The notes under the pieces are model-generated. The model was not told the DNA's origin, ran no database searches, and was given only the letters and a program-made list of their open reading frames with translations. Positions 9,764 through 12,804 of a stretch of DNA of 19,289 nt are shown in pieces (the first letter of the stretch is position 1; every line of letters begins with the position of its first letter). The DNA is from an uncultured Oscillospiraceae bacterium (GTDB lineage Bacteria; Bacillota; Clostridia; Oscillospirales; Oscillospiraceae): the NCBI GenBank assembly GCA_934621665.1, contig CAKTUT010000010.1, forward strand, positions 1-19,289, read 5' to 3'. A program made the translations under genes and the position numbers.

Positions 9764-9777
9764 CGGGAGGAATCTCG

Positions 9778-10458
9778 ATGAGAAAGAAATTTTACAGCGT
9801 GGCCATTGACGGCCCGAGCGGCGCGGGTAAAAGTACGCTTGCGCGCCGTGTGGCGGAAAGGCTGGGCTTTCGGTATGTGGACACCGGCGCAATCTACCGC
9901 GCCGTGGGCTATCACATGGCGCTGATGGGCGTAGGGCCGCGCGATAAGGACGGTATTACGCGGTTTATTGACGATGTGAATATCCAGATTGTCTACGCGG
10001 ACGATGGCATTCAGCATATGATTTTAAACGGCCGCGACATCACCGATGGGATCCGCACGCCGGAGATGTCGGTGTATGCCTCCGGCGTTTCAGCGCTGCC
10101 GTGCGTGCGCGATTATCTGCTGGATATGCAGCGAAGCCTTGCCCGGACGAACAATGTCATTATGGACGGCCGTGACATCGGAACGGTTGTCCTGCCGCAG
10201 GCGGACGTGAAAATCTTCCTGACGGCATCGGCCGAGGTGCGCGCGCAGCGCCGCTATGCGGAGCTGATCTCCAAGGGAGAAAATGTGACGCTCGACAAGG
10301 TACTGGCGGATATGCGCCAGCGCGACAAACAGGATTCCACACGCGCCGTTGCGCCGCTTCGCTGCGCGGAGGACGCGGTGCGGCTGGATACCTCCGAGAT
10401 GAATCTGGATGAGGCCGAGGCGGCTATCTTGAAAATTGTCAGGGGGAAGCTGGGATGA
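9778..10458 (+). CDS. cmk: Cytidylate kinase
   Basis: It phosphorylates CMP and dCMP with ATP in pyrimidine nucleotide recycling. The 226-residue product has the P-loop GPSGAGKST (12-20), the NMP-binding segment YVDTGAIYRAVG, the conserved MDGRDIGTVVLPQADVKIFLTA and the Arg-rich lid following it (AQRRYAEL). The start ATG 9778 has GGGAGG (9765-9770) seven bases upstream. The gene begins 14 bases after the flavoprotein stop and overlaps plsC by four bases (ATGA-type overlap). The order cmk-plsC-ispH-rpsA is a conserved Clostridia arrangement. Confidence 0.97.
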   Translation: MRKKFYSVAIDGPSGAGKSTLARRVAERLGFRYVDTGAIYRAVGYHMALMGVGPRDKDGITRFIDDVNIQIVYADDGIQHMILNGRDITDGIRTPEMSVYASGVSALPCVRDYLLDMQRSLARTNNVIMDGRDIGTVVLPQADVKIFLTASAEVRAQRRYAELISKGENVTLDKVLADMRQRDKQDSTRAVAPLRCAEDAVRLDTSEMNLDEAEAAILKIVRGKLG

Positions 10459-11090
10459 AGTTCTGGTACTGGGTGTGCTATGGGCTTGCAAGTATCGGCC
10501 TGTTCATCTGGCATCCGTTTTCGCGCTTTCATGGACGGGAGAACATCCCGGATGGCGGTGCGGTGTTCTGCTCGAATCATGCAAGCGCTGCCGATGCGGT
10601 TTGGGTTTTGCTTGCACTGCGACAACCGAATATGATCCGCGTCATGGCAAAAAATGAGCTGCACCACGCATTTTTTATTGGCTGGGTTATGGAGAAGTTC
10701 AGGATTATCTTTGTTCATCGCGGCAAACACGACACAAAGGCGTTTGATACATGTATTTCGGCACTGGAAAACGATGAGAAGCTTCTGATGTTCATCGAGG
10801 GCACGCGCTGGCGTCCGGATAAGGACACGCGCGCAAAGACCGGTGCGTTCCGTATGGCGGCACAAACCGATAAGCCGATTGTTCCGGTGTATGTGACGCG
10901 TAATAAAAAGCCGTTTGCGCCGGTTGACGTGATCATCGGTAAGCCATTTAAACTGGAGTGCGGCGCAGAAGCATCACACGAGACGCTTCAGCGCGTGGCG
11001 GACGAGACGCTTTACGAGATCTACAAAATGGGCGGTGATACATATGCAAATCATGTTGGCCGAGACAGCGGGCTTCTGCTTCGGAGTTGA
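10455..11090 (+). CDS. plsC: 1-acyl-sn-glycerol-3-phosphate acyltransferase (PlsC-like)
   Basis: This is a membrane-associated acyltransferase that makes phosphatidic acid from lysophosphatidic acid in phospholipid synthesis. The 211 residues hold an N-terminal hydrophobic segment (about 3-20). The catalytic HX4D is HASAADA (H42, D47), with IIFVHRG in the place of block II. The substrate-binding block III is FIEGTR (113-118), where most relatives have PEGTR, and IVPVY follows. The start ATG 10455 has GGGGGAAG just upstream and overlaps the cmk stop. Its stop lies 47 bases inside ispH. Acyl specificity cannot be inferred. The family is secure; the exact lysophospholipid substrate follows from context. 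Confidence 0.92.
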   Translation: MKFWYWVCYGLASIGLFIWHPFSRFHGRENIPDGGAVFCSNHASAADAVWVLLALRQPNMIRVMAKNELHHAFFIGWVMEKFRIIFVHRGKHDTKAFDTCISALENDEKLLMFIEGTRWRPDKDTRAKTGAFRMAAQTDKPIVPVYVTRNKKPFAPVDVIIGKPFKLECGAEASHETLQRVADETLYEIYKMGGDTYANHVGRDSGLLLRS

Positions 11091-11688
11091 CCGCGCCGTC
11101 TCGCTGGTGGAGCAGGCGGTGAAAGAGGGCAAGCACGTTGCGACGCTTGGACCGATTATCCACAACCGCCACGTGACAAGCCGGTTTGAGGCGCTCGGCG
11201 TGCGCGAGATTGCATCACCGGAGGAGGCAAGACCGGATGAATGCGTCATCATCCGTTCGCATGGCGTGAGCCGGACAGTGTATGATCAGCTGATAGCGCG
11301 CGGCGTTGAGGTGGTGGATGCTACGTGCCCGTTTGTCAAGAAAATTCACCATATTATTGCCGCGGCGGAGGAAAATGGACAGCAGCCGGTGATTATCGGT
11401 ACGCGAAGCCACCCAGAGGTGCAGGCCATTGCGGGCTGGTGTCATGATCCACAGATTTTTGAAACGCCGGAGGAGCTGGCCGAATGGCTTCAGAATGATG
11501 TAAATCGCACAAAGATACCCATCCGTATGGTCAGCCAAACCACCAGTACGCAGAAATTATGGGAAAAATCTTGTGAAATTTTAAAAAAAGAGTGTACAAA
11601 TTCAGAAATATTTGATACAATATGCAAAGCTACGGAGATGCGTCAATTTTGCCGAGCTTCTCGAGCAGTCCCTCAAAACTTTAAATAA
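11044..11688 (+). pseudogene. ispH: ispH (HMBPP reductase) with missing C-terminal third and frameshift
   Basis: IspH is the 4Fe-4S enzyme that ends the MEP isoprenoid pathway (HMBPP to IPP/DMAPP). The start ATG 11044 is preceded by GGGCGGTG. All N-terminal and central signatures are present: Cys12 in GFCFGVDRAV, GPIIHNRHV, RSHGV, Cys95 in DATCPFVKKIH, the HPEV block (123-126), SQTT (165-168) and Cys194 in TICKATEMRQ. After residue 201 the frame reads FCRASRAVPQNFK and stops (TAA 11686-11688), with no IspH similarity. The third domain, of roughly 85-90 residues with the Ser/Asn substrate-binding motif (GGxxSSNT-like), is absent. The next bases encode the start of ribosomal protein S1 in the +1 frame. 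In many Clostridia IspH is fused to S1, so I read this as a fused gene with an internal, out-of-frame deletion. An assembly error is a real alternative. Confidence 0.85.
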
Positions 11689-12727
11689 TGGAGATAAGGT
11701 CACTGGCACGGTTATGGCGATCGGCTCGACGGAAGTCGAAGTTGACCTGGGCACCAAGCATACGGCATACATCCCGGTGGAAGAGTTCCTGACCGAGCCG
11801 GGTGCAAAGATCGAGGACGCTGTCAAGGTCGGCGATCAGGTTGAGGCAATCGTTGTCCATGTCAATGACGGCGAGGGTGTTGTCCGCCTGTCCAAAAAGC
11901 GTCTGGAAGCAGGCAAGGCTTGGGAAGAAATTGAAGCTGCTGTTGAGAGCAAGGAAGTTCTTGAGGGCGTTGTCACCGAAGAAAACAAGGGCGGCGTTGT
12001 CGTCAGCATCAAGGGTGTTCGGGTGTTCGTTCCCGCATCCCAGACCGGCGTGCCCAAGGGCGGCGATCTCGGCGCTCTGGTAAAGACCACAGTCAAGCTC
12101 CGCATTACCGAAGTCAACCGCGCACGCCGCCGTGTTGTCGGCTCGATCCGCAGTGTCGCTTCTGAAGAGCGCAAGGCTGCGCAGGAGAAGATCTGGAGCG
12201 AAATCGAAGTTGGCAAGCACTATCATGGTGTTGTCAAATCCCTCACCTCCTACGGCGCATTTGTCGATATCGGCGGTGTTGACGGCATGGTTCACGTATC
12301 CGAGCTCAGCTGGAATCGCATCAAGAATCCGGCAGAGGTTGTCAAGGTTGGCGACGAGATCGACGTGTTCGTGATCTCGTTCGATCCGGAAAAGAAGAAA
12401 ATCTCTCTGGGCTACAAGACCGCTGAGACCAATCCGTGGACGATGTTCAACGCGCAGTATGCTGTCGGCGACGTTGTCAAGGTCAAGATTGTCAAGCTGA
12501 TGACTTTCGGTGCATTTGCAGAGATCATCCCCGGCGTTGACGGCCTGATCCACATCTCCCAGATCGCGGATCGCCGCATTGCAAAGCCTGAGGACGTTCT
12601 GTCTGAGGGTCAGGAAGTGGATGCAAAGATCATCGACATTGATCAGGAGCACAAGCGTATCTCTCTGTCCATCCGTGCACTGCTGAACGGCAGTGACGAG
12701 GCAGAAGCTGAGGGCGACGCTGAGTAA
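11612..12727 (+). CDS. rpsA: 30S ribosomal protein S1 / S1 RNA-binding moiety of an IspH-S1 fusion, start uncertain
   Basis: S1 binds mRNA on the 30S subunit. Four S1 domains are visible at about residues 26-97, 114-181, 199-267 and 283-355 (numbered from 11612). The third and fourth are the best matches (SYGAFVDIGGVDGMVHVSEL; TFGAFAEIIPGVDGLIHISQI). An acidic tail follows. Recognisable S1 sequence starts at NFAELLEQSLKTLNNGD (11645). The nominal TTG start at 11612 lies inside ispH and has no ribosome binding site, and the next in-frame ATG (11714) would cut the first domain. This suggests S1 was the C-terminal half of a fused ispH-rpsA gene. Codon use shifts to the restricted set of a highly expressed gene. 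A strong terminator follows. Confidence 0.88.
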   Translation: MIQYAKLRRCVNFAELLEQSLKTLNNGDKVTGTVMAIGSTEVEVDLGTKHTAYIPVEEFLTEPGAKIEDAVKVGDQVEAIVVHVNDGEGVVRLSKKRLEAGKAWEEIEAAVESKEVLEGVVTEENKGGVVVSIKGVRVFVPASQTGVPKGGDLGALVKTTVKLRITEVNRARRRVVGSIRSVASEERKAAQEKIWSEIEVGKHYHGVVKSLTSYGAFVDIGGVDGMVHVSELSWNRIKNPAEVVKVGDEIDVFVISFDPEKKKISLGYKTAETNPWTMFNAQYAVGDVVKVKIVKLMTFGAFAEIIPGVDGLIHISQIADRRIAKPEDVLSEGQEVDAKIIDIDQEHKRISLSIRALLNGSDEAEAEGDAE

Positions 12728-12741
12728 TTTCACAAAATACA

Positions 12742-12774
12742 GGCGGGTCATCTGTGATGACCCGCCTTTTGTTT
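12742..12774 (+). terminator. Strong terminator after rpsA
   Basis: An 11-bp stem, GGCGGGTCATC (12742-12752) with GATGACCCGCC (12756-12766), closes on a TGT loop and is followed by TTTTGTTT. It ends the regulator-cmk-rpsA operon, 14 bases after the stop. Confidence 0.95.
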
Positions 12775-12804
12775 AGCACCCTATGAAAGAAAGGAGCAAC
12801 GCAT

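Follow-up and report, generated by a model that had tools for sequence, protein, structure and literature searches.

A 272-nt deletion at the ispH–rpsA joint of an Oscillospiraceae contig and a probable internal start for ribosomal protein S1 in intact ispH–rpsA fusion genes

In a 19,289-nt stretch of DNA from an uncultured Oscillospiraceae bacterium (contig CAKTUT010000010.1; hereafter, the window), ispH turns into nonsense part of the way through, and the gene of ribosomal protein S1 (rpsA) follows at once in another reading frame. This arrangement raises two questions: what was lost at the joint, and how S1 is made from the gene when it is intact.

The ispH–rpsA joint in the window

The following features surround the joint.

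11044..11646, + strand: 5' part of ispH, 201 codons (LYTB positions 1-188 of 267; 199/201 residues identical to the intact protein P0001)
11646..11648, + strand: deletion joint (272 nt missing compared with P0001)
11647..11688, + strand: out-of-frame ispH tail, 13 residues (FCRASRAVPQNFK) and a stop codon, as read from the frame (stop at 11688)
11648..12727, + strand: rpsA (S1) without a start, with four S1 repeats (PF00575, four stretches; NF005208)
12741..12767, + strand: terminator-like hairpin 3' of rpsA (12-pair stem and T-rich tail)

The start codon of ispH is ATG 11044, and the frame stays family-like as far as the Q codon of TICKATEMRQ, which ends at 11646; all three cluster cysteine regions are retained. 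The original prediction described IspH as normal up to TICKATEMRQ and nonsensical thereafter, with S1 resuming in the +1 frame, and both statements agree with our analysis: 13 wrong residues follow 11646, and the first S1 codon is F (TTT) at 11648. The rpsA piece scores 388 bits against NF005208 (cut-off, 368 bits).

Both pieces align to a single NCBIfam model, NF000907, which represents the IspH/S1 fusion, one at each end of it. The ispH piece covers positions 3-197 (210.8 bits) and the S1 piece positions 291-639 (391.3 bits), each below the model cut-off of 624 bits. A chance juxtaposition need not be considered, as the two halves come from one known fusion family. Of the hallmarks of this fusion, the window keeps the four S1 repeats, whereas its LytB/IspH domain is incomplete (only 1-188 of 267) and the single ORF is interrupted by the +1 frame difference at 11647.

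The gene order in the window (9772-12727) is cmk, acyltransferase, ispH, and rpsA. Since cmk adjoins rpsA in Escherichia coli, ispH may have been inserted between cmk and rpsA. A phage origin was rejected, since the region 10400-12800 gave no match in the phage collection.

Intact copies and the extent of the deletion

A protein search with S1 found an intact fusion of 650 residues, P0001, which matches the window at 199 of 201 positions in IspH and at 345 of 359 in S1. It holds 91 residues that are absent from the window, and the net loss is 272 nt. The loss had been predicted as 85–90 IspH residues; this number is near the total of 91 but mixes two proteins, as 77 of the missing residues belong to IspH and 14 are counted from the start methionine of S1. 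The 77 missing IspH residues of P0001 include the SSNT and TAGAS motifs; SSN and the serine of TAGAS bind the substrate of IspH. Compared with the intact copies, the deletion took the C-terminal region of IspH together with the S1 leader, the Shine-Dalgarno sequence, the start codon, and the first 14 S1 residues. To judge from the codons, both ends of the gap appear to share the 2 nt AA.

The IspH of another record, P0121, agrees with the window at 198 of 201 residues and likewise extends beyond the joint. Among the matches listed (120 of 7752, few of which were read in sequence), there was no second record with the joint of the window. That the joint is a chimera made from two different species was considered and rejected, as P0001 joins both halves in one protein, though its last ~25 S1 residues differ from the window.

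With regard to this tail, the S1 proteins of the window and P0001 differ at one position up to residue 332 and then at 12 positions in the last ~27 residues (window 12640-12727), which represents either a variable tail or a chimeric record. In three proteins of sister species (P0123, P0124, and P0129), the IspH reading frame is lost inside the A-rich TICKATEMRQ region or shortly after it, and the A-runs around it may be prone to indels.

Fusion genes and contig breaks among the relatives

The scan of genome contigs yielded 80 loci, mostly of Oscillospiraceae, whose S1 is 67-89% identical. One open frame runs across IspH and S1 in 73 of these nearest loci, in line with the earlier proposal of a lesion in an ispH–rpsA fusion gene; the joint is a 272-nt deletion in such a gene. 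In the class-wide search of 196 genomes, 157 were above the fusion cut-off, and the in-frame fusion is kept in these 157. A 26-base exact pattern was too specific, matching only G002 among 61 genomes of the phylum.

The frames of the two pieces meet in a T run, as might be expected of a programmed +1 frameshift that makes a short IspH–S1 fusion. However, 91 residues including the C-terminal motifs of IspH would remain absent from such a product, and all 182 scored loci are in frame without any shift. We give this explanation practically no chance.

The other seven of the 80 loci lack ispH, and their contigs begin either 22-107 nt before the F codon of S1 'FAELL' (five loci) or inside S1 (two loci). 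Five contig starts within 150 nt upstream of the F codon compare with 0.44 expected (P ~9e-5), where the expectation is taken from 17 further contig starts over the other 5850 nt. This clustering suggests that the joint often breaks assemblies, probably because the S1 DNA is very alike between species.

The original prediction offered a second ispH or a mevalonate pathway as ways to tolerate the loss, and neither received support from the genomes of six relatives. These genomes each have one LytB match (6/6) and one full-length S1 above the cut-off; IspG was found in five of the six, and HMG-CoA reductase is absent from all six. Organisms with the fusion are likewise described as having no other ispH or rps1 by Rao et al. 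(2015, PMC4746011).

A conserved putative S1 start inside ispH

Two sets of intact genes were compared. The close-relative set consists of 72 loci that passed a motif filter. The class set consists of 110 of the 157 genomes above the cut-off (the 30 best-scoring loci and 80 picked from the listing), with 47 left out. Expected counts were obtained by shuffling synonymous codons within each gene.

In all 72 close relatives, the codons of IIKEV spell AAGGAGGT, in which an ATG lies 11 nt after GGAGG; L075, which the filter had dropped, also carries GGAGG and the start. A GGAGG located 5-13 nt before an in-frame start is present in 72/72 close relatives (38.2 expected) and in 110/110 loci class-wide (14.9 expected). 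The close-relative count alone is only about twofold above expectation, and the relatives are not independent of each other. The start codon is ATG in every close relative and in 108 of the class set, where two have GTG. The spacing is 11 nt in 72/72 close relatives; class-wide it is 11 nt in 99 loci, 8 nt in 10, and 5 nt in one. A Shine-Dalgarno sequence and start at a conserved spacing, as expected for a nested in-frame gene, are thus found in the intact relatives of both sets (72/72 and 110/110).

The protein sequence at this site is less constant than the DNA motif. The encoded residues in the class set are KEV (74), EEV (17), KEA (7), REV (7), GEV (2), and EEA, QEV, and MEV (1 each), so that the residue of the first codon varies (K, E, R, G, Q, M) over an invariant GGAGG. 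The valine codon at the site is GTG in 0/72 close relatives, compared with 41% (2218/5393) of the valine codons elsewhere in these genes. The region around the start is less structured than in synonymous shuffles in 68/72 close relatives; class-wide this holds for only 59/110 loci, which is no reduction in structure.

These observations bear on the statement in the original prediction that S1 has no credible start in the window. Within the S1 frame at ~11588-11738, there are only TTG 11612 and ATG 11714, neither of which has a good Shine-Dalgarno sequence by eye, and ATG 11714 sits within S1 domain 1. The statement therefore holds for the window itself but not for the gene, as S1 would normally have its own start inside ispH, which was lost by the deletion.

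Genomes without the fusion provide a natural control. IspH was looked for in 34 of the 39 genomes that scored under the fusion cut-off; it was present in 16, and the site could be aligned in 14 (L202 and L206 gave no aligned site). In five of these (L191-L194 and L200, of which L193 and L194 have similar joints), tblastn placed rpsA directly after ispH, with the two genes overlapping in different frames. The start of rpsA in these five is the homologous signal, in which 9-10 nt separate GGAGG from ATG. Fused and unfused states therefore coexist in one class. In nine unfused IspH genes without adjacent rpsA, GGAGG occurs in 1/9 and a start at 5-13 nt in 0/9. Because the signal is present in the five overlapping pairs and the start is absent from the nine genes without rpsA, it goes with rpsA and not with IspH.

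The GGAGG motif is situated at a domain boundary, and codons resembling Shine-Dalgarno sequences have been proposed to slow ribosomes. The motif might then be a pausing signal that lets IspH fold before S1 is made. We consider this improbable. A start codon accompanies GGAGG at a fixed distance, no other rpsA start signal is evident in the five unfused relatives, and unfused IspH without rpsA mostly lacks it. Since the signal tracks rpsA, it is not accounted for by pausing in the fusion alone.

A promoter-like element upstream of the joint

A promoter-like element (11593-11621) is still present in the window, upstream of the joint. It consists of the following parts.

11583..11589, + strand: A-tract just 5' of the element (an A-run in most of the 72 relatives, 80% consensus line)
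11593..11598, + strand: -35-like hexamer TGTACA, 4/6 to TTGACA (conserved-block comparison and promoter scan)
11613..11621, + strand: extended -10, TGATACAAT, within the FDTIC codons (72/72 close relatives; 17-nt spacer, TG)

In the relatives, the conserved core TGATACAAT is located 17 nt after a TGTACA or TTTACT-like hexamer, which is preceded by an A run. The pattern TGnTA[CT]AAT is present in 72/72 close relatives against 2.25 expected from synonymous shuffles and in 54/110 loci class-wide against 12.2 expected. In 72/72 close relatives, the extended -10 precedes the S1 start by 256 nt, and the deletion of the window begins ~25 nt past the -10. When the full -35/-10 arrangement was scored, 62/72 close relatives and only 23/110 loci class-wide exceeded 95% of the shuffles.

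The surrounding DNA forms an AT-rich dip (28.9% G+C at 11540-11629 in the window) that is conserved. In the 72 relatives, codons 169-198 reach a synonymous identity of 0.70-0.82, compared with 0.34-0.58 for the other IspH codons as far as codon 264. GC3 falls to 0.22 in codons 169-198 from a usual value of ~0.8. The S1 codons are also high in synonymous identity (0.50-0.76), so some of the conservation may reflect the codon bias of a highly expressed gene. On these patterns, the promoter-like signal is strong among the close relatives of the window and uncertain farther out, in contrast to the S1 start signal, which is class-wide.

The same AT-rich block in the FDTIC codons could instead be an RNA element, such as a site for S1 binding or autoregulation. 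The distance from the block to the S1 start is ~256 nt in 72/72 close relatives, and S1 is described as preferring AU-rich RNA (PMC6203783), both of which would suit such an element. However, the most invariant part of the block is the extended -10 at 17 nt from the -35-like hexamer, and no Rfam family was found at gathering cut-offs across the whole window. An RNA element is therefore rather unlikely as an alternative to the promoter.

Origin of the lesion

Because the six relatives each have one IspH and one full-length S1, the window allele would be null for both. It would yield neither active IspH nor normal S1, and for this reason it most likely does not belong to a living genome; a living genome that has lost both functions is unlikely. 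In our judgement, an artefact of assembly or library preparation is likelier than a living allele. The original prediction stated that a full-length in-frame fusion in a relative would make the joint an assembly error. P0001 provides such a fusion at the level of the species, which leaves this particular DNA molecule aside.

The joint itself counts against an artefact to some extent, as it is a clean single deletion with the apparent 2-nt shared sequence, and real deletions also show such sequence. The sampled strain could thus carry a recent loss-of-function allele that is tolerated via another IspH or scavenged isoprenoids, or that belongs to a dying lineage. The gene neighborhood otherwise looks intact. 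In addition, loss of IspH occurs in the class: of the 34 genomes tested under the fusion cut-off, 18 lack a LytB match, although incompleteness may explain some of them, and 8/8 tested LytB-less genomes also have no HMG-CoA reductase. On the other hand, a real deletion would have struck IspH and S1 at once, while six relatives carry one of each, a near-identical intact copy (P0001) exists, and contig breaks cluster at the joint. Therefore, we consider a real deletion doubtful, though worth keeping in mind, and prefer an artefact. The lesion serves as a warning that the joint is a weak spot in assemblies.

The class members that have neither a LytB nor an HMG-CoA reductase match (G011, G013, G020, G038, G045, G050, G072, and G073) are either incomplete genomes or users of another isoprenoid source.

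A proposed two-product gene

In the mechanism that we propose, intact genes would supply S1 in two forms, one joined to IspH as the C-terminal half of the fusion and the other free and initiated at the embedded start, with part of the free S1 translated from transcripts of the promoter-like element in the FDTIC region. Because the in-frame fusion is found in 157/196 genomes and the internal start in 110/110 examined, two products would be the simplest account. The 'Rosetta stone' IspH–RPS1 fusion is thus probably a two-product gene that gives both the fusion and free S1. We assign a probability of roughly 0.7 to the complete reading, in which the joint is a deletion in a fusion gene, intact genes produce S1 in both ways, and an artefact best explains the lesion. 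It appears quite likely that the fusion gene is nested in this manner across Clostridia, a promoter and ribosome binding site inside ispH giving free S1 and read-through giving the fusion, so that whatever function is sought for the fusion may apply to no more than part of the S1 in the cell.

The fusion has been taken to hint at a physical link between the ribosome and isoprenoid or Fe-S chemistry (PMC4746011). If most S1 is produced in free form from the start within ispH, the case for such a physical tie weakens. S1 would also be incompletely annotated throughout a large class of bacteria, and lesions in the 3' part of ispH would abolish S1 as well.

Comparison with known systems

The closest known system is the IspH–RPS1 fusion (Rao et al. 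2015, PMC4746011; NF000907), which has the same two domains in the same order and, according to that report, occurs mostly in anaerobes of the Firmicutes, many of them from the gut. The fusion is treated there as a single polypeptide, and the main text does not contain the words 'internal', 'start codon', 'Shine', or 'promoter'. The present analysis adds the embedded S1 start and the putative promoter, and the copy in the window is broken. An internal start or promoter in the fusion was not found in the literature open without subscription; the nested S1 start in ispH is apparently unreported, whereas the fusion itself is already known.

In-frame internal starts that give two products are found in the long and short forms of CheA, the forms of IF2, and LysC of Bacillus subtilis. 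The intact fusion genes resemble these in that one frame contains an internal Shine-Dalgarno sequence and start, which would give a shorter C-terminal product. They differ in the predicted products, of which the shorter would be an entire ribosomal protein and the longer an enzyme fused to S1. A second likeness is to out-of-frame overlapping gene pairs with translational coupling; in the five unfused relatives, rpsA starts inside ispH, out of frame, at the same signal. In the fusion genomes, by contrast, the overlap is in frame, so that the same start becomes nested within a single longer gene.
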